From the NCBI RefSeq assembly GCF_022919135.1, contig NZ_CP095049.1, positions 806,001 to 870,000 on the forward strand: DNA of 64,000 nucleotides, given 5' to 3'. The translations under genes were made by a program, and so were the position numbers. This document shows, in pieces, positions 7,318 through 63,857 of this stretch. Numbering within the stretch: the first letter of the stretch is position 1; the number at the start of each line of letters is the position of its first letter. The DNA is from Hymenobacter cellulosivorans (GTDB taxonomy: Bacteria; Bacteroidota; Bacteroidia; Cytophagales; Hymenobacteraceae). The notes beneath the pieces were generated by a model. The model ran no database searches. It saw only the letters and a program-made list of their open reading frames with translations, and was not told the DNA's origin.

Positions 7318-7343
7318 GATTTCGCGCAGGCCAGTATTCAACC

Positions 7344-7497
7344 TGTCATTGCGAGCAGCGCGAAGCAATCCGTCCGCTGAAATGTGCTGAGTGTTCCAAA
7401 GTAAAAGCCCTTACTACTGCTTGTAGTAAGGGCTTTCTGGTAAAAGGCTGTTTGTCACAAGCAGAGGACGGATTGCTTCGCGCTGCTTACAATGACA
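7344..7497. repeat. REP-like palindromic element, copy A
   Basis: A 154-bp palindromic unit. The 32-nt outer arms (7344-7375 and 7466-7497) are complementary at all but two positions and contain GCAGCGCGAAGCAATCCGTC. An inner hairpin at about 7403-7436 has arms AAAGCCCTTACTAC and GTAGTAAGGGCTTT. The sequence between the stems matches the element at 38218-38394 in opposite orientation. It lies downstream of the SDR gene and could stop transcription. Confidence 0.85.
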
Positions 7498-7530
7498 GAT
7501 GCAGCAACAACAAACAGTCAGTTATGAACC

Positions 7531-11888: not shown

Positions 11889-12674
11889 TTACTTCAGGTG
11901 CTTCTCGTAAATATTGGCCGCAATTTTCTCGGTTAGGGCCTTGGGCACGAAGCCGGTAAGCCGGGCCGAAACCTTGTTCAGGGCCCCGGGGATTACCTCG
12001 GCCTCACCGGCCAGCAAAGCCGTAACGCCGAATTTGGCTACCTGCTCGGGTGTCATGGAGAGCTTGGCGGCCACTTCCTGCAGGCCCGCACTCATCCCGG
12101 CGCGGTCGGCAAAGTCGGTGGTGGTAGCGCCGGGGCTCAGGCAGGTCACCGATACGGGTGAGTCGCGCAGCTCGTAGCGCAGGCCCCGGGAGAAGGTGAG
12201 CAAAAACGCCTTGCTGGCTGCGTAGAGCGTGAGGGTGGGCACGGCCTGGTAGGCCGCCGTGCTGGCAATGTTGAGAATGTAGGCCTTGGGCTGCTGCTTG
12301 AGCAGGGGCAACAGCTGGTGGGTCAGCTCCACGGGCAGGAGCATGTTGAGCTGCAGCATGTTTTGCTGGGCCGCCAGCGGCAAGTCCTCAAACCGGCCCC
12401 AGAGGCCATAGCCCGCGTTATTGACCAACACTGCCAGCTCCTTCGTGTGCTGCCGCGCCCACTCAGCCAGCCGGGTTGCCGCGCCGGGCTCGGCCAAATC
12501 CAGGGGCAGGAAGCGGGCCTCGACGCCGTGCTGGGCACCCAGCTCGGTGGCTACCTGCGCGAGTTGGTCTTGGCTGCGGGCCGTGAGCAGCAGGTGGTAG
12601 CCGCGCCCGGCCAGTTCGGCGGCCAGGGCCCGGCCAATGCCGCGGGAAGCGCCGGTGATAAGAGCGTAGGGCAT
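11889..12674 (-). CDS. SDR family oxidoreductase (YqjQ/DltE-like)
   Basis: 261 residues. The nucleotide-binding motif GASRGIGRALA is at residues 7-17, NNAGYG at about 85, the catalytic Ser in NIASTAA and YAASK at about 151. The C-terminal NIYEKHLK end and the SPGATTTDF segment fit the classical SDR subgroup often annotated as YqjQ or DltE. NAD(P)H-dependent, cytoplasmic. An octamer-repeat element (12677-12786) separates it from the dioxygenase upstream on the same strand. Confidence 0.85.
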   Translation of the reverse strand: MPYALITGASRGIGRALAAELAGRGYHLLLTARSQDQLAQVATELGAQHGVEARFLPLDLAEPGAATRLAEWARQHTKELAVLVNNAGYGLWGRFEDLPLAAQQNMLQLNMLLPVELTHQLLPLLKQQPKAYILNIASTAAYQAVPTLTLYAASKAFLLTFSRGLRYELRDSPVSVTCLSPGATTTDFADRAGMSAGLQEVAAKLSMTPEQVAKFGVTALLAGEAEVIPGALNKVSARLTGFVPKALTEKIAANIYEKHLK

Positions 12675-12676
12675 AT

Positions 12677-12786
12677 GGTGAGTTGGTGAGTTGGTGAGAT
12701 AGTGAGTTGTCGTTCGGCTGGCGCTTGTTGCTCAATCCGCTCGGAATGAACATCAACTCACCAGTTCACCATCTCACTATTTCACC
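12677..12786. repeat. Inverted octamer element O1
   Basis: Left arm 12677-12708 is four octamers: GGTGAGTT, GGTGAGTT, GGTGAGAT, AGTGAGTT. Right arm 12755-12786 is the inverse: AACTCACC, AGTTCACC, ATCTCACT, ATTTCACC. Between them lies a core containing TTCGGCTGGCGC (12713-12724), which recurs inverted in the element at 52579. The last codons and stop of the dioxygenase at 12777 lie inside the right arm. Confidence 0.8.
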
Positions 12787-13592
12787 AGGTGTAAAAACCG
12801 CAGGTAAAAAGGCGTGGGGCTGTCGGGCTGCTTGGGGGCGTATTTGCCGCTGATGACGGGCACGTACATCACCCGGCGGCGGGAAGCCTCGCCCACCAGC
12901 GGCGACTGGGCCACGCGGTGCCACATCCGGCCGTCGTGCACGGTCAGGTCGCCGGGCTGGGTTTCGACGGCCAGCTCGTGGGGGTCGTACGACACGTCCT
13001 TGTAGTACTTCTTGCGAAACAGCAGCTGGTGTAGGCTCTGGCGGTGGGTGCCGGGAATAATGCGCAAGCCGCCGTTGGTGGCTGCGGTGCCATCCAGGTG
13101 CAGGCCCACATTGAGCATGGGCCCGATGCGCTTGCCGTAGAATACGTCGCGCAGCGAATCGGTGTGCCAGCCCATCTGGCTGAACTCCGAGCCCGGCACG
13201 TTCACGTAGTGGTTGATAACCAGGCCATCCTTCTCGTTTTCGCCCACCCGCCCGTTGGGGGCTTCCAGCAGCGGAAACAAGGCCTCAAACCGCGGGTCCT
13301 GGAGCAGTTCGTGCAGCACGGGGCTGTGCTGGGAAGCAAAGGCGAAGCGCTGCACGATGCGAGAGCCGTCTACGTCCTTGCCGTACTTGATGGGCACGCC
13401 GTTGACTTTTTCCACGCCTTCGGCCAGCCACCGCGCCTGCACGGCCTCCGTGGCCGCCAGAATTTGCTGCACCTGCTCGGGCGAAACAAAGGCGCGGAAG
13501 TGCAGAAACCCGTGCTGCCGAAAAAACTCCCGCTGCTCAGCCGTTAGCGTGGTTCCAAGAGTAAAACGCGGATAAGTAGGGAGTAAAGCCAT
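12777..13592 (-). CDS. Phytanoyl-CoA dioxygenase (PhyH) family protein
   Basis: 271 residues from the ATG at 13592 (MALLPTYPRF). An upstream in-frame ATG at 13658 would add 22 residues without recognisable features. The early segment EFFRQHGFLHFRAFVS is the typical PhyH opening. WHTDS supplies the Fe(II)-binding His-x-Asp and MWHRVAQSP the distal His. A following Arg (SRRRVM) could bind 2-oxoglutarate. It should be a non-haem Fe(II)/2-oxoglutarate hydroxylase of unknown substrate. The final codons Val-Lys-stop come from an octamer-repeat arm. Confidence 0.85.
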   Translation of the reverse strand: MALLPTYPRFTLGTTLTAEQREFFRQHGFLHFRAFVSPEQVQQILAATEAVQARWLAEGVEKVNGVPIKYGKDVDGSRIVQRFAFASQHSPVLHELLQDPRFEALFPLLEAPNGRVGENEKDGLVINHYVNVPGSEFSQMGWHTDSLRDVFYGKRIGPMLNVGLHLDGTAATNGGLRIIPGTHRQSLHQLLFRKKYYKDVSYDPHELAVETQPGDLTVHDGRMWHRVAQSPLVGEASRRRVMYVPVISGKYAPKQPDSPTPFYLRFLHLVK

Positions 13593-13803: not shown

Positions 13804-14604
13804 ATGTCTGGCTTTTCCCCGTTTTACTGCTTCCCTAAATCAGCGGCTTTGCTAGCCCTGGCCCTGCTGCTAACCGGCACTAGCCCGGCCCAGAGCACCT
13901 CGGCCCGGCTAGTGCCGTTCCGCCAGGGTACCAAGTGGGGCTACGCCGACCAGCGCCGCCGCTTGGTGCTGCCCCTGCGCTTCGACGAGGCCGGTCCTTT
14001 CGTGCAGGAGCTGGCCTGGGTGCGCATCGGGCCGCTTTATGGCTACATTGATGGAGGCGGCAACCCCGTCACGCCGGTGCAGTTTACCAAGGCCAGCACC
14101 TTCAGCCGCAACCGGGCCACGGTAGAGCTCAACGGCGAAACGTTTCAGATTGACGGCACCGGCCAGCGCTTGACCACCCCTCCCGAACCCGAGCCGGAAA
14201 CCGAGTTTCTAACCCAGGGCGACCTGACCCGGCAAAACGGCAAGGTGGGCTTCCGCTTCACCGTAGGCCAAGCCGTGGTGCCCAACGTGTACGACGAGAT
14301 TCTGGAAAACTACAACGGCCTGCTCTTCGTGCGCCAGGGCACCAAGTGGGGCGTGCTCAACAACAAGGGCAAAGTAACCCTACCCCTGGAGTACGACACC
14401 ATAAAGGCTATTGAGACCAACAACTTCGCCTATCCCGTAGTAGAGCAGCAGGGCAAGTTTGGCTACCTGGCCGAGGATGGTACCCTACTGGTAGCCCCCA
14501 AGTACCAGGCCGCCGAGCCCTTCGTGGCCGACGTGGCCCGCGTGACTACCGCCGACGGCCGCAGCGGCTACATCGACACCCGCGGCCGGGAGTACTTCGA
14601 CTAG
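13804..14604 (+). CDS. Secreted WG-repeat protein
   Basis: 266 residues. A signal peptide (ALLLTGTSPAQ) is followed by repeated beta units with the WG signature: GTKWGYADQRRRLVLPLRFD, GPLYGYIDGGG, GTKWGVLNNKGKVTLPLEYD, GKFGYLAEDGTLLVAPKYQ, GRSGYIDTRG. WG repeats are common in Bacteroidota surface or periplasmic proteins and are thought to be binding modules. No catalytic motif is seen. Confidence 0.85.
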   Translation: MSGFSPFYCFPKSAALLALALLLTGTSPAQSTSARLVPFRQGTKWGYADQRRRLVLPLRFDEAGPFVQELAWVRIGPLYGYIDGGGNPVTPVQFTKASTFSRNRATVELNGETFQIDGTGQRLTTPPEPEPETEFLTQGDLTRQNGKVGFRFTVGQAVVPNVYDEILENYNGLLFVRQGTKWGVLNNKGKVTLPLEYDTIKAIETNNFAYPVVEQQGKFGYLAEDGTLLVAPKYQAAEPFVADVARVTTADGRSGYIDTRGREYFD

Positions 14605-35845: not shown

Positions 35846-38185
35846 ATGCAAAAAATCTACCGCTGGCTGGCCCCGTTGCTGGCTGCTCTATTCCTGCTCC
35901 CTTCCTCCCTTCACGCTCAAAAAGTGGGCCTCGTGCTCAGCGGCGGCGGCGCCAAAGGCCTGGCCCACGTGGGCGTGCTCAAGCAACTCGAAAAAAACCG
36001 GGTTCCCATCGACTACATCGTGGGCACCAGCATGGGTGCCATCGTGGGCGCCCTGTACGCGGCGGGCTACTCACCCAAGGAAATCGAGGAAATTGTGCTC
36101 AAGCCCGAGTTTCAGAACTGGGTGTCGGGGGCGCCGCTCGAAGGCAAGGTGTATAACTACTACGACGTAGACCCCACCCCAGCTGCCCTGCACCTGCGCC
36201 TGGCCGTCGACTCGACCCTAAAAACGCGGGTGACGCCCAAGCTGGTCGACGACGTGACGCTGAACTACGTGCTGGCCACCATGCTGGCCCCGGCCGGCGC
36301 TATTTCGGGCTACGACTTCAACAACCTACTGGTGCCCTACCGGGCCGTGGCCTCGGAGGTATTTACCCGCGAAAAGGTGGTGCAGCGCAGCGGCTCGTTG
36401 TCGGATGCGGTGCGCAACTCCATGGCTTTTCCGCTGGCTTTTCGTCCCATCCGGCAGGCCGACGGCCGCTACCTCTTCGACGGAGCCGTGGTGGACAACT
36501 TCCCGACCGGTGTAATGCGCGAAGAATTTAAGCCCGACATCATCATCGGGGTAAACGTGGGCGACGTGGCCTTCAATAAGTACCCCAAGGAAAAGGACGA
36601 CCAGCTGCTGACCAGCACCCTGGTGTTTCTGGGCTCGAACGTGGCCGATACGACTTCGGTGGGCAAGAACGGCATCTTCATCCAGCCCAACCTGGACGGC
36701 ATCACCGCCGCCGACTTCAACAAGGTGCGCCAGCTGCTGCAGCTGGGCGAGCAGGCCGCCGATAAGAAGATGGAGCTGCTGCTCAAGCGGATTCCCCGCC
36801 GCGAAGACACCCTGGCCCTGCAGCAGCGGCGGCGGGCCTTCCAGGAAAAAGCGCCCCGGCCCGACTTCAAGCAGATAACCGTGCAGGGCCTGCCCCGCCA
36901 GCAGCAGGATTTCGTGCGCCGCTTCTTCGTGCGCAACGGCACTAGCTACTCCCCCGGCGACATTGAGGAAGGCTACTACCGCCTGGTCAACAACGACTTC
37001 TTCAACAACGTGTACCCCCGCATCCGCTACGACCAGAAGCAGGAAGGCTACGTGCTGGGCATTGATGCCCGCCAGAACAGCAACCTCACTGCCGACCTGG
37101 GCGTGATGCTCTCGACCCGCTCGATGAACAACTTCTACATCGGCGGGGCTTACCGGTACCTAAACCGCTACCTCTACACCGTGCGGGCTGATGCCACCAT
37201 CGGGCGCTTCTACAACGGGGCCCGGGGCTCGTTCCGAATCAGCATTCCGGGCCGGATTCCGCTGTATTTTGAGCCCACCGTCACGTTCAACAACTTCAAT
37301 TACCAGGACACCGGCGGCCTGCTGGGCTCCACGGCCCAGAACACCCAGCTCAGCCAGCGCGACTTCAAAACCGAGCTCCAGATTGGCTTCAGCCCCAACT
37401 ACCGCAGCCGCTACACCCTCAGCGGGGGCTTGTTCACAAACCGCGACCAGTACGCCAATACCGACGAAATCAGTTCCAACGCCACCCTCGACCTGGACCG
37501 CCTCCAGGGCGTCACGGCGGCCGGCCGCTTCGAGCGTAACTCCCTGAACCGCCGGCAGTATGCCGTTAGTGGCCGCCGCGCCGACTTCAGCGTGCGGGCG
37601 GTATCGGCCCAGGAAAAGTACACGCCCGGCACCACCGCCGGCGACCTAACCGAGCGTAGCCGCACCCACAATTTCCTGAAGGCCAGCCTCTTCATTGAAC
37701 AGTATTTCACCTTCAACAAAGTTGATTCGGTGGGCCGCAAGGTGAATGCCTGGGGCTACATCTTCGATGCCGTGGCTACTACCCAGGGTCCCTTTGCCAC
37801 CTACCGGGCTTCCCTGACTTCGGCCCCGGCCTTTTTGCCCCTGCCCGACTCCCGCACCCTGTTTCTAGACCGTTACCGGGGTACGGCCTACGCGGCCGTG
37901 GGCTTGCGCTATACCAAAGCCGTGCTGGGTCCGGTGGAGTGGCGCACCGAAATCTACGGGCACGTGCTGGTACGGCAGTGGGAGCGGCAGGAAGGCAACA
38001 CGCTGCTGGCCGAGCGCGGCAATACCATCAGCCGCCCCTACCTCACGGCCATGACCGGCTTTGTGTATCAAACGCCCGTGGGCCCGGCCTCTCTGCAGTT
38101 CATCCACTACGACGATGCCGACAACAAATTCGGCGTGTTTGCCCACATCGGCTACGTCCTCTTCCGCGACCGGTCGTTGGATTAA
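35846..38185 (+). CDS. Patatin-like phospholipase fused to POTRA and outer-membrane barrel
   Basis: 779 residues with signal peptide (LLPSSLHAQ). Patatin domain about 28-230: oxyanion GGGAKG, nucleophile GTSMG, and the catalytic Asp in FDGAVVDNFP. A POTRA-like segment follows at about 340-400 (ITVQGLPRQQQDFVRRFF, YYRLVNNDFFNNVYPRI), then an Omp85-type beta-barrel to the end (FGVFAHIGYVLF at the C-terminus). This is the order of type Vd autotransporters such as PlpD. It may deliver a lipase to the surface or act from the periplasm. Confidence 0.88.
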   Translation: MQKIYRWLAPLLAALFLLPSSLHAQKVGLVLSGGGAKGLAHVGVLKQLEKNRVPIDYIVGTSMGAIVGALYAAGYSPKEIEEIVLKPEFQNWVSGAPLEGKVYNYYDVDPTPAALHLRLAVDSTLKTRVTPKLVDDVTLNYVLATMLAPAGAISGYDFNNLLVPYRAVASEVFTREKVVQRSGSLSDAVRNSMAFPLAFRPIRQADGRYLFDGAVVDNFPTGVMREEFKPDIIIGVNVGDVAFNKYPKEKDDQLLTSTLVFLGSNVADTTSVGKNGIFIQPNLDGITAADFNKVRQLLQLGEQAADKKMELLLKRIPRREDTLALQQRRRAFQEKAPRPDFKQITVQGLPRQQQDFVRRFFVRNGTSYSPGDIEEGYYRLVNNDFFNNVYPRIRYDQKQEGYVLGIDARQNSNLTADLGVMLSTRSMNNFYIGGAYRYLNRYLYTVRADATIGRFYNGARGSFRISIPGRIPLYFEPTVTFNNFNYQDTGGLLGSTAQNTQLSQRDFKTELQIGFSPNYRSRYTLSGGLFTNRDQYANTDEISSNATLDLDRLQGVTAAGRFERNSLNRRQYAVSGRRADFSVRAVSAQEKYTPGTTAGDLTERSRTHNFLKASLFIEQYFTFNKVDSVGRKVNAWGYIFDAVATTQGPFATYRASLTSAPAFLPLPDSRTLFLDRYRGTAYAAVGLRYTKAVLGPVEWRTEIYGHVLVRQWERQEGNTLLAERGNTISRPYLTAMTGFVYQTPVGPASLQFIHYDDADNKFGVFAHIGYVLFRDRSLD

Positions 38186-38187
38186 GT

Positions 38188-38449
38188 GGTGAACTGGTGA
38201 GTTTGATGTTCACCGGGTTCTTGCGAGCAGGCACGACATTCCGTGCATGAAGCGGCGTCAATCCGTCCTCTGCTAGTGACAACCGTCCTTTTACCAGAAA
38301 GCCCTTTATTCCATCTGGCATAAAGGGCTTTTCACTGAAGGATACTCAGCACATTTCACAGGACGGATTGCCCCGGCTGCGCCTCGCAAGGACACTTTTT
38401 CAACTTACCATTTCACCACTTCACTATCTCACCGCTTCACTATCTCACC
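38188..38449. repeat. Octamer element O2 enclosing a REP-like unit
   Basis: Left arm 38188-38203 is GGTGAACT, GGTGAGTT. Right arm 38402-38449 is six inverted octamers (AACTTACC, ATTTCACC, ACTTCACT, ATCTCACC, GCTTCACT, ATCTCACC). Instead of the short core seen in the elements at 12677 and 52579, the interior is the REP-like copy B. The left arm begins 2 nt after the patatin stop; the aquaporin stop lies inside the right arm. Confidence 0.75.
38218..38394. repeat. REP-like palindromic element, copy B
   Basis: Reverse-complement relative of the element at 7344-7497. Shared blocks include CAATCCGTCC, GAAATGTGCTGAGT, AAAGCCCTT..AAGGGCTTT, CTGGTAAAAGG and AGAGGACGGATTG. The inner stem here is AAAGCCCTTTAT paired with ATAAAGGGCTTT, different from copy A but still complementary. 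The outer arms are less symmetrical than in copy A, with an extra insertion (GCACGACATTCCGTGC) on one side. Confidence 0.8.
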
Positions 38450-39281
38450 GCTTCCTGCGGGTACACTGGGGGCTCGGTGGCGTGGGGCGTGGAGGCGTGC
38501 GGGCTGTCGGGGCGGCTTCGCAGCCGGCCAGGATGGCGCAGGCCAGCTCCTCGCCTTTGTAGACACTGTTAAAGAAAACGGTAGCCAGCAGCATAGCCGC
38601 TATGGGCGCCACCCAATATAGCCACAGGCCGGTGTAGCTCTGGGCCGCCACGGCGCTGCCCAAGGTGCGGGCCGGGTTGAGGCTCATGCTGGAAAGCGGG
38701 CTTTCGAAGGTGATATAGAGCAGCAGCAGCACCCCAATCAGCCAGCCGGTCGACTTCTTCAGCCGCTCGTGGTGCAGGGCCAACAGCATGACTACCATCA
38801 GGATAAAGGAAATGACGAACTCGGCGCCGAAAGCCACCAGCTGCCCGTGCTCCTTGGGCTCGGTTACCAGGTAATTAACGGCCGGGTGGGCAAAGACAGA
38901 GCCTAAGGTCAGCTTGAGCAGCTGGCCCATCAGCAAAGCTCCGCTCAGCTGGGCCAGCATGTACCATAAGGCATCGGCCCGCCGGATTTTGCCCATTTGC
39001 CAGAAGGCAATAGTCACGGCCGGGTTAATGTGCGCCCCCGACTTCTTGCCCCATGGATTGTACACCAGCACCACAATAACCAGGCCCATGCCCAGCCCGA
39101 TACCGGCGCGGCGCAGCAAGTCCTGACCGGCCAGGGCCTGGTACACCGGCGACGCTGGGTACTCAAACAGGATGGTGAGCAGCGTGCCGCACAGCATAAA
39201 GAAACCGATGCCTGCCGCCTCCGCCGCGTAGTGCGACCAGTGTCGGTGCCAGGCGTGGCGCATTTCGGATAACAAGGTCAT
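38445..39281 (-). CDS. Aquaporin / MIP family channel
   Basis: 278 residues with six hydrophobic segments and two pore motifs: HINPAVT (NPA near 85) and LNPARTLGS (NPA near 202). The selectivity-filter Arg follows the second NPA. It passes water or small neutral solutes such as glycerol across the inner membrane. The last 25 residues (APTARTPPRPTPPSPQ...) are basic/proline-rich and look like recruited intergenic DNA; the TGA stop lies in an octamer-repeat arm. Confidence 0.9.
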   Translation of the reverse strand: MTLLSEMRHAWHRHWSHYAAEAAGIGFFMLCGTLLTILFEYPASPVYQALAGQDLLRRAGIGLGMGLVIVVLVYNPWGKKSGAHINPAVTIAFWQMGKIRRADALWYMLAQLSGALLMGQLLKLTLGSVFAHPAVNYLVTEPKEHGQLVAFGAEFVISFILMVVMLLALHHERLKKSTGWLIGVLLLLYITFESPLSSMSLNPARTLGSAVAAQSYTGLWLYWVAPIAAMLLATVFFNSVYKGEELACAILAGCEAAPTARTPPRPTPPSPQCTRRKR

Positions 39282-43315: not shown

Positions 43316-43993
43316 ATGAAATTATTACTGGTCGAGGATGAGCCCAAGCTGGCTTCGTTTATTCAGAAAGGCTTCCAAAACGAAGGCTACGAGCTGGACG
43401 TGGCCTTCGACGGCCAGATGGGCCTCTCGCTGTTCCGGCAAAACAGCTACGATTTGATTGTGCTCGACGTAAACCTGCCCTACATCAACGGCTTCGCGCT
43501 CTGCCAGCTCATCCGGGCCGACAACGCCCGCGTGCCGGTGCTCATGCTCACGGCCCTCGACAGCCTGGAAGACAAAACCCAGGGCTTCGAGGCCGGGGCC
43601 GACGATTACTTGGTCAAGCCCTTCAAGTTTCAGGAGCTGCTGCTGCGGGCCCGGGCCCTGACCAAGCGCAACGCCACGGAAGCCAGCGTGAAGCGCACCC
43701 TGCGCATGGCGGACCTGGAGCTCAACCTGGAAAGCAAAACCGTAACTCGGGCCGGGCAGCGCATCGACCTGACGGCCAAGGAATACGCCCTGCTGGAACA
43801 CCTGCTGCTGCACCGAGGCAAGATCGTTTCCCGCGTCGACATCACCGAGAAAGTCTGGGAGCTGGACTTCGACACCAACACCAACGTCATCGACGTCTAC
43901 ATCAGCCACCTGCGCCGCAAGCTCGACAAAGGTCACGAGCCCAAACTCATCCACACCGTGGTCGGCATGGGCTACGTGATGCGGGAAGAATAA
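43316..43993 (+). CDS. OmpR-family response regulator
   Basis: 225 residues. The receiver domain has the acidic pair (VEDEP), phospho-acceptor Asp51 in VLDVNLP, the Thr of MLTALDS and Lys in LVKPF. The C-terminal winged helix shows LTAKEYALLEHLLLH and DVYISHLRRKLD. It is paired with the histidine kinase that starts 126 nt downstream and should bind DNA when phosphorylated. The signal and targets are unknown. Confidence 0.92.
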   Translation: MKLLLVEDEPKLASFIQKGFQNEGYELDVAFDGQMGLSLFRQNSYDLIVLDVNLPYINGFALCQLIRADNARVPVLMLTALDSLEDKTQGFEAGADDYLVKPFKFQELLLRARALTKRNATEASVKRTLRMADLELNLESKTVTRAGQRIDLTAKEYALLEHLLLHRGKIVSRVDITEKVWELDFDTNTNVIDVYISHLRRKLDKGHEPKLIHTVVGMGYVMREE

Positions 43994-43997
43994 GGGA

Positions 43998-44117
43998 AAA
44001 TGTGAGGAATGTGAGAAACGAGGTCCTGTCCTTGCTTGGCTTCACTCGCAAGGACGCATTTCCCACATGTAGCCTCATTAGCACCTGAGCACATTCCAAC
44101 CCACTAGCACATTAACC
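43998..44117. repeat. Composite repeat between response regulator and kinase (O4)
   Basis: AATGTGAG occurs twice (43999 and 44008). GTCCTTGC (44028-44035) and GCAAGGAC (44048-44055) form a hairpin related to REP-like ends. A right part with repeated AGCACATT-type units (44056-44117, spaced mainly by 8 nt) follows. It looks like a looser relative of the octamer-plus-REP arrangement at 38188. Confidence 0.45.
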
Positions 44118-50897: not shown

Positions 50898-52574
50898 CTA
50901 CTTCTGGTTTTCCAGGAATTTGTCGGCGGTGCGCAGGGCCAGGGCCATGATAGTCAGGGCGGGATTCACGCTCAGGGCGCTGGGGAACACCGAGTTGTCG
51001 CAGATGTAGAGGTTGGGCACGTCGAAAGCTTTGCCGTTGGCATCCACCACGGCGTCGTCGCCCGAAAGGCCCATGCGGGCCGTGCCGATGACGTGAGCCG
51101 AGCGGGGAAAAGCCCAGATATCGGTGGCGCCGGCGGCTTCCCAGATCTGCCGCATCAGCTTTTCGGCGTGGGCGTTCATCCGGATTTCGTTTTCGTGGTT
51201 GGTGAAGTGCAACCGGGGCTTGGGCAGGCCGCGGGCGTCTTTTTCCTCGGCCAGTTCCAGGAAGTTGTCGGCGTGGGGCAGACAGTCGCCCAGGATGTTG
51301 ATGCCGGCAATGTGGTTGTACTGCTGCATGTATTGGCGCAGCGGCTCACCCCATAGTTTACGCCCCCGGGCCACCTGTCCGGCAAACGTGACAGGCATGA
51401 TGCCTATGCTTTGCAGCAAGTAGCCACCGGCAAAATCGGCATCCTTGGGGCGGAAGGTATCCTGGGAAATCAACGAGCCGGGAATGCCCTTGAAGGGCCG
51501 GACTTCCTCGGCAAAGGTGCCGAAGACCTGCACGCCGGGGTGGGCCATAAAGTTGCGCCCCACGTGCCCGCTGCTCAAGGCCAATTCGTTGAGCAAAAGC
51601 AGCCGCGGCGTTTCGACGGCGCCGGCGCACAGAAACAGGTGGCGGCAGCGCAGGCGCTGCTCTACTCCATTCTGCTGATAGATAACGCCGGTGATTTTGC
51701 CCGTGTCGTCCCGCTCGATTTCCGTCACGTAACAGCCGGGCCGGATGTCGGCACCATAAGCGGCGGCCAGGGGCAGAAAGGTCACGTCCATACTGGCCTT
51801 GGCCCCGGTGCTGCAGCCGGCCTGGCAGAAGCCCCGGTTGGTGCAGGCCTCGCGCCAGCCTACGCCTTCCTGGTAATAGCGTGCCGACAGCGCTGCGTTG
51901 GCCGCCGGCGACGTCCTGATTCCCAGCGCCTCACAGCCCCGCTGCATGAGTTGGGCGGCGCCGTTCAGCGGCAGCGGAGCCAGCGGGTAGCCTTTGCGGC
52001 GGGCCGGCCCCCACGGATACGGCGTCGGGCCTGAAATACCCAGAAATTGCTCTAGTTCCTCGAAGTAGGGTTCCAGCTCCTCGTAGCCGAAGGGCCAGTC
52101 CTGACCCACGCCAAAGTCGCGGTGCAGGTGCAGGTCTTCGGGCTGAGGGCGTGGGGTGTAGGCCGTGTAGTGCAGCGTAGAGCCGCCGACACCGGTACCC
52201 GAGTTATTCTTGCCGAAGGCCACCGGGTCGTGGCCGGCCGAGAGCCGCTCGTCGTTCCAGAACAGAAATTCCTGGGCTTTTTCATCGGTGGCAAAGTCCT
52301 TTTTCGGGTCGTGCCAGGGGCCGGCCTCCAGGGCCACCACCTTCAGGCCGGCCATAGCCAGGCGGGCCAGCAGCGGCGCCCCACCGGCCCCAGTCCCGAT
52401 GACAATACAATCCACGGTTTCGGCGGGCAGCGGAATTTCCAGGGGCGCGGGTTCGGGCACGATGGGCCTTTCGACCATCGGGGCATCGGCCAGCAGGCTT
52501 TGGAGCAGCGGATCCTGAATTTCCGGCTTAACGGGGTTCAGAATGCCTTCTTCCAAGGTTTCTTCGTCGGGCAT
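50898..52574 (-). CDS. GMC family oxidoreductase
   Basis: 558 residues. FAD binding: DCIVIGTGAGGAPLLARL near residue 55, VVALEAGPW and the GVGGSTLHYTAY loop. The C-terminal catalytic region has SAHVIGTARMG and the NPALTIMALALR end. CTNRGFCQAGCSTGAK is the short Cys cluster seen in gluconate/sorbose-dehydrogenase-type members. Together with the subunit-3-like protein encoded upstream it probably forms a membrane-linked dehydrogenase of sugars or polyols. The octamer element at 52579 separates the two genes. Confidence 0.85.
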   Translation of the reverse strand: MPDEETLEEGILNPVKPEIQDPLLQSLLADAPMVERPIVPEPAPLEIPLPAETVDCIVIGTGAGGAPLLARLAMAGLKVVALEAGPWHDPKKDFATDEKAQEFLFWNDERLSAGHDPVAFGKNNSGTGVGGSTLHYTAYTPRPQPEDLHLHRDFGVGQDWPFGYEELEPYFEELEQFLGISGPTPYPWGPARRKGYPLAPLPLNGAAQLMQRGCEALGIRTSPAANAALSARYYQEGVGWREACTNRGFCQAGCSTGAKASMDVTFLPLAAAYGADIRPGCYVTEIERDDTGKITGVIYQQNGVEQRLRCRHLFLCAGAVETPRLLLLNELALSSGHVGRNFMAHPGVQVFGTFAEEVRPFKGIPGSLISQDTFRPKDADFAGGYLLQSIGIMPVTFAGQVARGRKLWGEPLRQYMQQYNHIAGINILGDCLPHADNFLELAEEKDARGLPKPRLHFTNHENEIRMNAHAEKLMRQIWEAAGATDIWAFPRSAHVIGTARMGLSGDDAVVDANGKAFDVPNLYICDNSVFPSALSVNPALTIMALALRTADKFLENQK

Positions 52575-52578
52575 AAAC

Positions 52579-52702
52579 GGTGAATGAGTGAATGAGTGAG
52601 ATAGTGAATGCTTGAATTAGTAGATGAGTGAGTTGTTCTGTTGCCGCAAGGCTGCGCCAGCCGAAAATCCACTTCACTCATTCACTCAATCACTCATTCA
52701 CC
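52579..52702. repeat. Inverted octamer element O3
   Basis: Left arm: GGTGAATG, AGTGAATG, AGTGAGAT, AGTGAATG, then CTTGAATT, AGTAGATG, AGTGAGTT (52579-52634). Right arm 52672-52702: CTTCACTC, ATTCACTC, AATCACTC, ATTCACC. The core includes GCGCCAGCCGAA (52654-52665), the reverse complement of the core in the element at 12677. The last codons and the TGA of the upstream gene lie in the right arm. Confidence 0.8.
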
Positions 52703-53307
52703 GCTGGCTCCCGGTCTTCTTTTTGGTTGAGGGTGATTTTGCTCCAGCCGGGCACGTCGGCCATGCCCACGTAGCCGATTTCTTCCTGGGCCAGGGGGTG
52801 GGCGTAGTAGTTTTCGGTCAGTTCGGCCAGCAGCTCCTCGAAGAAGCGGTTAGCCGACAGCGTATCCCAGAGTGGGCCCGGCGCGGTTTCGTTTTGCACG
52901 GCTTGCAGTACAGCGTCCTGCTGCAGGCCCGTCAGCTCCTCAAACGGGGCCCCGAATATAACCCGGGCGCTTTCCCGGATGCCACCCAGCCCCAGGCGGT
53001 AGGCTTCCCGATCGGGAGGCAGCACGTCGTAGCGCCAGCCATCGGAGCCGCCCGTGAGCAGGCGCTGGTCGATAGCCGGGGCCAGCTCGATGGGCGAGTC
53101 CCGGTCGGGCTGGGGAAACAGGCGGGCCGCCACCATGCGCAGCAGCTCGTAGGTAGCCGCATCAAAAAACTGGGGCTCGTAGTCGGGCGCGTCGAGGCGG
53201 GCCTGCAGGGCCGTACGCGTGGCTTCGGTCACAAGGTCGGTGGCCAGCAGGGCACGTACGGTGCCTGCGGGGTAAGCAGAAGAAGCCATATCGGGAAGGA
53301 AAGCCAT
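52690..53307 (-). CDS. Gluconate 2-dehydrogenase subunit 3 family protein
   Basis: 205 residues (199 if the ATG at 53289 is used). YELLRMVAARLFPQPDRDSP and the later ESARVIFGAPFEELTGLQQD segment are typical of the small subunit of GMC-type dehydrogenases. The C-terminal half holds LWDTLSANRFFEELLAELTE and YYAHPLAQEEIGYVGM, also conserved in the family. It is probably needed for assembly or export of the GMC subunit encoded downstream. Stop (GTG AAT GAG TGA) is made of octamer-repeat sequence. Confidence 0.8.
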   Translation of the reverse strand: MAFLPDMASSAYPAGTVRALLATDLVTEATRTALQARLDAPDYEPQFFDAATYELLRMVAARLFPQPDRDSPIELAPAIDQRLLTGGSDGWRYDVLPPDREAYRLGLGGIRESARVIFGAPFEELTGLQQDAVLQAVQNETAPGPLWDTLSANRFFEELLAELTENYYAHPLAQEEIGYVGMADVPGWSKITLNQKEDREPAVNE

Positions 53308-63707: not shown

Positions 63708-63716
63708 CTTTGTTAC

Positions 63717-63857
63717 TTATCCAGAAAGACCGAGGGATTGGGCCCGACGACGTCTTAGCAACCTGAAATAAAACAAGGTGCTAACTCCCATTCTAGAGCC
63801 TCGGCTGTGGAAGAAGATAAGAACAGGACGCGCCCCTGCGCGGCTCTTTCTGGATAG
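63717..63857 (+). ncRNA. SAM-I riboswitch (S-box leader)
   Basis: The closing stem P1 is TATCCAGAAAGA (63718-63729) paired with TCTTTCTGGATA (63845-63856). Inside are the conserved blocks GAGGGATTGGGCCCGACGA, TTAGCAACC, AAGGTGCTAACTCC and AGATAAGAAC, in the order of the SAM-I aptamer (P2 kink-turn, P3, P4). The arrangement upstream of metH fits repression when SAM is abundant. No terminator is obvious between 63858 and the ATG, so the expression platform may be translational or use the P1 strand itself. Confidence 0.92.

Follow-up and report, generated by a model that had tools for sequence, protein, structure and literature searches.

The window, i.e., the whole stretch of 64,000 nucleotides analysed from Hymenobacter cellulosivorans (contig NZ_CP095049.1, positions 806,001 to 870,000), carries a 110 bp palindrome at 12677-12786, here called O1. 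Flanking it are two minus-strand genes, assigned by Pfam to the short-chain dehydrogenases (11889-12674, PF00106) and the PhyH family (12777-13592, PF05721). Four RGTGARWN octamers, a GTTC/GAAC core and four inverted octamers make up the palindrome:

12677..12708, plus strand: left arm, four octamers, read directly as GGTGAGTT GGTGAGTT GGTGAGAT AGTGAGTT
12709..12754, no strand: core of 46 nt, with GTCGTTC at its left and GAACATCA at its right end
12755..12786, minus strand: right arm, reading inward on the minus strand (12786-12755) GGTGAAAT AGTGAGAT GGTGAACT GGTGAGTT
12777..12779, minus strand: TAG stop codon of the PhyH-family gene 12777-13592, at the junction of right-arm units 1 and 2

Direct reading bears out the initial annotation, which had described inverted runs of RGTGARWN and a gene (12777-13592) ending with GTG AAA TAG inside the right arm. 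The consensus, also read directly, is free of GGG tracts. On the other side, the short-chain dehydrogenase gene has its start codon (minus strand, 12672-12674) 2 nt downstream of the point where the left arm begins. A 30-nt stretch extending from the core-side end of the left arm into the core is found again in another copy, L043, at about 5.743 Mb, which indicates some copying between loci.

As RNA, O1 is predicted to fold at -57.4 kcal/mol on the plus strand (z -7.5) and at -49.8 kcal/mol on the minus strand (z -8.0), the latter being the strand of both flanking genes. Such stable folds on both strands favor a hairpin selected by the host at gene 3' ends, where RNA structure behind the stop codon would block 3' exonucleases, Rho entry or read-through between genes, but no terminator-like site accompanies them: a scan for intrinsic terminators (a G+C-rich stem followed by a T run) returned 0 sites at 12500-13000. 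The promoter scan gave nothing for O1. The Rfam scan of the window yielded no family above the gathering score, and none at O1, except a SAM riboswitch (RF00162) at 63714-63823, scoring 68.1 bits.

The same arrangement had been proposed for positions 38188 and 52579. This is accurate for the second (O3), which repeats the overall plan of O1 with a longer, ragged left arm of seven scored units. The first (O2) agrees only in outline, since two left units there face six right units about 200 nt away, the interval holding a second palindrome and a terminator-like hairpin.

38188..38203, plus strand: O2 left arm, two octamers, 2 nt past the TAA (38183-38185) of the patatin-family gene 35846-38185
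38251..38378, no strand: inner palindrome of O2, a member of a second repeat family, with arms at 38251-38272 and 38357-38378 and a central terminator-like hairpin
38402..38449, minus strand: O2 right arm, six scored units, holding the TGA (38445-38447) of the MIP-family gene 38445-39281
52579..52634, plus strand: O3 left arm, GTGAATGA-type octamers, upstream of the GMC oxidoreductase gene (50898-52574), with 4 nt between it and the start codon
52671..52702, minus strand: O3 right arm, four octamers, with the end of the gluconate 2-dehydrogenase subunit 3 gene (52690-53307) inside

The last of these genes terminates within the O3 right arm with the codons GTG AAT GAG TGA. The second palindrome family (CATTGCGAG...GAAGCAATCCGTCC, with a AAAGCCCTTT/AAAGGGCTTT terminator-like hairpin in its center) is itself dispersed, occurring in the window at 38251-38378 and 7343-7498 and matching the genome 26 times with at most three mismatches (reversed control, 0); several octamer elements hold it between their arms. 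A further octamer type, ATGTGCTG/ATGTGCTA, was recognized by eye in three relatives (G039, G046 and G036), where its arrays enclose the CATTGCGAG palindrome as outer arms, and likewise by eye as a shorter remnant only in this genome, at window positions 43993-44078.

Copy number and placement at gene ends

The window matches three consecutive units with at most two mismatches 13 times; 100 shuffles that preserved dinucleotide composition averaged 0.02 matches. The genome as a whole (G000; 6,101,666 bases in one contig) holds 58 exact three-unit matches vs. 4 for the reversed pattern, and 327 vs. 50 with two mismatches. At least one exact match is present in 91 of 120 Hymenobacter genomes, G000 counted in, with a range of 0 to 232 per genome; 29 of the 120 have none. 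Scarcity of copies, which the initial annotation had named as evidence against a genuine element, is thus the opposite of what was found. A few genomes, G065 among them (154 matches vs. 133 in the control), also score high with the reversed pattern, so that match totals there mean little and the G065 figure is untrustworthy. Among genomes of named species, octamers followed by GTTC occur at no fewer than 80 loci (at least 120 stretches); 78 of the 80 listed belong to Hymenobacter, and the other two are single matches in other phyla that probably arose by chance. Viral contigs contributed one match.

Loci of G000 were picked by exact or one-mismatch three-unit matches among those listed, a selection from which weak copies are missing. 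After removal of out-of-phase duplicate records they comprise 52 distinct two-armed copies, and the genome total is perhaps around a hundred. The raw array records numbered 104, and 42 one-armed ones were left out of the two-armed counts; loci of other species were picked for GTTC beside the array. Exactly four units form 39 of the 52 left arms and 34 of the 52 right arms in G000, as well as 105 of 164 arms in other species. The palindromes are typically 93-125 bp long, their outer end is usually RGTGA and their innermost unit usually GTGAGTT; GTTC begins 3-4 nt beyond this unit in 24 of 47 G000 arms, which had not been chosen for GTTC. The middles of the 52 copies fall mainly into groups of 29, 38-39 and 46-48 nt, and longer ones, up to 358 nt, belong to copies in which other repeats are nested. 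Within the unit GTGA is near-fixed, and A and G are mixed at positions 1 and 6. A preserved GTGA whose neighboring positions vary between A and G could be expected of binding sites for a nucleoid or RNA-binding protein arrayed at 8-nt steps; because one and the same site carries different dialects in related species, as described below, we regard this explanation as extremely improbable.

Placement, stop codons and arms were analysed for elements with a called gene on each side, which kept 46 of the 52 G000 copies and, with 82 elements from loci of other Hymenobacter, gave a set of 128. Genes were called by a simple codon-score finder trained on conserved genes of the window, which recovered 44 of 47 known ends with 52 predicted. 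As many as 118 of the 128 elements lie within -45 to +5 nt of a stop codon. Their flanking genes are oriented minus-minus in 45 cases, plus-plus in 41, plus-minus in 39 and minus-plus in 3. Divergent pairs are thereby depleted relative to a background of 102 neighboring gene pairs from the window and three 20-kb stretches (3 of 128 vs. 19 of 102, p 5e-5), and convergent pairs are in slight excess (p 0.03). The stop codons of 164 gene 3' ends overlap an arm in 83 cases, lie 0-5 nt outside in 73 and further away in 8; arm edges admit units with 5 of 7 matches, and some of the overlaps may be one weak unit too long. For 92 gene starts, whose calls are less sure than those of stops, the corresponding figures are 2 overlapping an arm, 50 at 0-8 nt outside and 40 further. 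The enrichment of flanking stops in the arms that the initial annotation had anticipated is therefore present (83 of 164 stops vs. 2 of 92 starts). The octamers are also not equally common inside coding sequence, as had been considered: 9 of 90 array records fall inside called genes, and all nine are three-unit records of chance-like appearance. A weak four-unit record at 13813-13844, at the start of gene 13804-14604, looks like chance.

Around co-directional pairs the stop side lies within -45 to +5 nt in 80 of 86 cases and the start side in 47 of 86, which indicates that the element is anchored to the stop codon and does not merely fill gaps. This anchoring, together with the small number of divergent pairs, would also be expected of the host-selected hairpin.

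Inward stop codons and unit length

Over their last 32 nt, 238 of 256 octamer arms are closed by stop codons in every frame when read inward; outward, 212 of the 256 are fully open. The asymmetry follows from a single consensus unit and counts as one fact, not many. The initial annotation had seen in the 8-nt period a design that places stops in all three frames; as a consequence of the unit this is real, but as a common design or purpose it does not extend to the heptamer arrays of the genus. In 1.7 Mb from eight genomes, inverted arrays number 23 at period 7, 23 at period 8 and 15 at period 14 (twice 7), followed by 4, 1 and 3 at periods 6, 9 and 12, none at 10, 11 and 13, and 0-4 at each remaining period between 4 and 13. 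The Hymenobacter heptamer arrays (19 pairs) follow the same inverted plan as the octamers, stand mostly at stop codons and have a GTTC/GTTT-like core start in 9 of the 19 pairs. Their arms close three frames inward in 7 of 38 cases and none in 9 of 38 (last 28 nt), and the CAGTTGT and AAGCTGC types are mostly without inward stops, yet occupy the same places as octamers. With plan and place retained and inward stops often missing, stops are not what these arrays have in common. The window alone contains no heptamer pair; three pairs occur in L068-L070.

A stop-codon device, with the 8-nt period selected for closing all three frames, would account for the closed inward and open outward reading of the octamer arms, for the 83 of 164 flanking 3' ends that use an arm-overlapping stop, and for the prevalence of periods 7, 8 and 14 over 6, 9 and 12; given that CAGTTGT and AAGCTGC arms are mostly stop-free inward at the same places, and that periods 10, 11 and 13 would serve equally but gave no arrays, we judge it very unlikely. 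Inward stop codons may still matter for tolerance of the element.

Orthologous sites, arm agreement and origin

Orthologous loci with and without the element, a comparison suggested at the outset, both exist among the relatives. Nine G000 copies are readable in G015, where by eye seven are octamer arrays (O1, O2, O3, L002, L048, L049 and L050), L051 retains a right-arm remnant and L066 has no array. In G039 the array is clear at L050 and degraded at L049, with no element at L002, L048, L051 or L066. At L066 the element stands in place of a gap and the old start codon. Sites lacking the element in G039 or G015 point to gain or loss. At the O1 site, arrays are present in three relatives that keep both genes (G015, G036 and G005), and GTG AA(A/G) TAG recurs there at the stop position. 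The left-arm dialect is different in each; in G015 and G036 neither arm has the dialect found in G000, and in G005 the two arms are of two different dialects. The O3 arms in G039 and G046 likewise both differ in dialect from G000. By eye, the O2 site has octamer outer arms with a second palindrome inside in each of five syntenic relatives, the nested family being the same in G039, G046, G036 and G005 and another palindrome in G015. Across 30 loci at the O3 boundary, the window's included, many carry RGTGA octamers, others octamers of the ATGTGCTG and CTGAGTCG types, and others an unrelated palindrome. Between G001 and G003 (88% identical in aligned stretches) some copies are near-unchanged and some have their center replaced by another palindrome; at one G003 site the left arm is made of heptamers and the right arm of octamers. 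This mixed site and the two dialects of O1 in G005 suggest that arms can be replaced singly. The array at L050 1541-1572 (GGTGATTTAGTGARATAGTGATTTAGTGAGTT) lies close to a start codon and, unlike most of those compared, hardly differs between G000, G015 and G039; it is a candidate for a regulatory role.

Both arms are of one dialect in 42 of 44 G000 copies. Arm agreement was scored at degenerate positions outside the innermost unit, with arms swapped between elements as controls. In other species an element's own arms agree at 0.815 vs. 0.754 ± 0.012 when swapped within species (74 elements, reached in 0 of 500 shuffles), and at 0.817 vs. 0.762 when swapped within species and dialect (70 elements, 0 of 500). 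For G000 agreement is 0.737 vs. 0.608 (46 elements, 0 of 500), and with the dialect held fixed 0.745 vs. 0.714, a marginal result matched in 9 of 500 shuffles (16 of 500 in an earlier test). When six species were tested one at a time, agreement was above all shuffles in none of them; it tied with the highest shuffle in H. citatus and was below the shuffled mean in H. piscis. Agreement is perfect in 22 of 128 elements. The outer unit strings are nearly all distinct in G000 (81 of 83 arm strings), which argues against recent copies of one master, and in three other species 16 of 19, 10 of 13 and 15 of 15 are distinct.

These observations bear on the possibility of a mobile palindromic element, MITE- or REP-like, that a transposase would move and that would become fixed only at sites where it does no harm. 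Dispersal and the range of 0 to 232 exact matches per genome are what such an element would produce, as are the empty sites in relatives and the stretch that O1 and L043 have in common. Genomes with a strong Y1 match (36, among the matches listed) tend to have more array matches (Mann-Whitney p 0.008, with kinship ignored and the reversed control included), but match number is no different between genomes with any Y1 hit and those with none (p 0.45), and G000 itself has no match to Y1_Tnp (PF01797), the one transposase family searched. Among 14 of the 26 strong-Y1 loci, 4 contain period-7 or period-8 arrays, all of them at least about 270 nt away from the gene; the frame read at L310 and L312 was not the Y1 gene itself. 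Of the MITE hallmarks, the element has inverted arms and shows no target site duplication, duplication lengths being equal to the shuffled expectation (n=128). With the lack of a shared master string in G000 and the one match among viral contigs, this makes a transposase-driven origin decidedly unlikely in our view. Y1_Tnp (PF01797) as the direct mobilizer was rejected after searches of G000, the 120 Hymenobacter genomes and 12 chosen genomes. The strong Y1 (RAYT-like) genes at L303-L309 and L311-L315 adjoin other palindrome families, e.g., AGCCCAGGGCTTTAGCCCTGGG, CCCCAGCGGGGCGAC and CCGCGTAGCGG.

The host-selected hairpin gains from sites common to several species and from the conservation of GTGA. 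Orthologous arms differ at 3.5-15% of GTGA positions vs. 27-38% of others (181 pairs that are not independent, some loci entering twice; mean flank divergence 17%), a contrast inflated by the detection of arms with the same consensus. The low divergence of GTGA could mean host function. On the transcribed strand, however, G-U pairs do not exceed A-C mismatches (48 vs. 48 for plus-plus and 56 vs. 70 for minus-minus flanks), which speaks against selected RNA pairing. A hairpin needed by the host also fits poorly with the 29 of 120 genomes lacking an exact three-unit match and with the G003 copy whose arms do not match. The available text of PMC4692102 describes heptamer arrays of Xanthomonas as mostly transcribed, in keeping with a role at the RNA level. 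On this evidence we consider selection by the host unlikely, if worth serious attention.

The reading we tentatively prefer, with slightly less than even confidence, takes O1 as a member of an intergenic repeat family dispersed in Hymenobacter, sited at gene 3' ends, in which the palindrome itself maintains the likeness of the two arms. The element would be mostly inherited in place. In a folded strand, one arm could template the other during replication or repair, which would make the arms alike; unit strings and dialects would shift through slippage and conversion from other copies; and selection would restrict a near-neutral element to harmless places. The inward stop in every octamer would let the element overrun the last codons of the upstream gene and keep translation out of the hairpin. 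A broader proposal, possible although we doubt it, is a class of resident, self-templating inverted tandem arrays, in which 7- or 8-nt units would form a string peculiar to each locus, the other arm would mirror it, and both arms would be rewritten together between species. If such a class existed, a pattern would be kept and spread by hairpin copying without a transposase, unit length would be set by that process, and gene-end position and core plan would persist while the strings change.

Comparison with known repeat systems

Cyanobacterial STRR heptamers and SDR5 are among the repeats with which such arrays may be compared. The closest likeness in the literature searched is with the heptamers of Rehm et al. 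2015, GGGAATC in Xanthomonas and GGGGA(C/T)T in Nostoc, which are G-rich and form quadruplexes (PMC4692102). In the available text of that paper, the Xanthomonas heptamers show a clear preference for four units, include 70 and 75 cases of two convergent sites, lie near or overlapping stop codons, are scarce between divergent genes and are dispersed; transcripts start or stop in their quadruplex-forming arrays more often than in a control set (PMC4692102). The octamer element resembles them in its tandem units, four-unit preference, convergent pairs, position at stop codons, avoidance of divergent pairs and dispersal. It differs in having a period of 8 instead of 7, no GGG in its consensus, and a GTTC/GAAC core of which the same text makes no mention for the Xanthomonas or Nostoc heptamers (PMC4692102).

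MacGregor 2015 described direct repeats of the heptamer TAACTGA in Beggiatoaceae, Cyanobacteria and five Bacteroidetes (PMC4679880). According to the available text, the forward repeats hold stop codons in all frames, which is stated as probably controlling their distribution, and they lie mostly just upstream of start codons, with one inverted case in 170 sets (PMC4679880). Our arrays are likewise tandem, can overlap the ends of open reading frames and carry stops in all frames, but they are inverted, stand at stop codons and have an 8-nt instead of a 7-nt unit. The initial annotation knew of no described element with this design; in the literature searched, the statement holds for the octamer unit and the core, whereas all-frame stops from a 7-nt repeat had been printed in 2015 (PMC4679880).

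REP sequences are palindromes of 20-40 bp tagged GTAG or CGTC, tied elsewhere to Y1 transposases in RAYT systems, and the GTAG type often gives flanking open reading frames a TAG stop, as far as the available part of the source describes them (PMC3733652). The octamer element is also a high-copy palindrome that supplies stops to neighboring genes. An identity with REP/RAYT was nonetheless rejected, as the element typically measures 93-125 bp and has no GTAG or CGTC tag, G000 has no Y1, and no array stands beside the strong Y1 genes of relatives. The 155-bp Correia form, RUP (107 bp) and CIR are small intergenic repeats with stops in all frames, and RUP is said to offer the best evidence of transposition by terminal inverted repeats; unlike in the octamer element, arms of tandem units are not mentioned for them in the available text of the review (PMC2229807).

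No octamer element of this kind was found in the literature searched, mainly open-licence papers. Compared with the available text of PMC4692102 and PMC4679880, the features we have not seen described are the octamer unit, the core, the locus-specific and partly mirrored strings, and the species dialects at one site. On the best reading, the octamer element is a resident 3'-end hairpin repeat whose palindrome would maintain its symmetry, any function being putative. As far as their available text goes, the two papers leave the origin and function of 7-nt gene-end arrays open (PMC4692102, PMC4679880). In the 120 Hymenobacter genomes exact matches range from 0 to 232, units come in two lengths and several dialects, and one gene boundary can have different occupants; this variety makes the origin of such arrays and the likeness of their arms testable by strain comparison.
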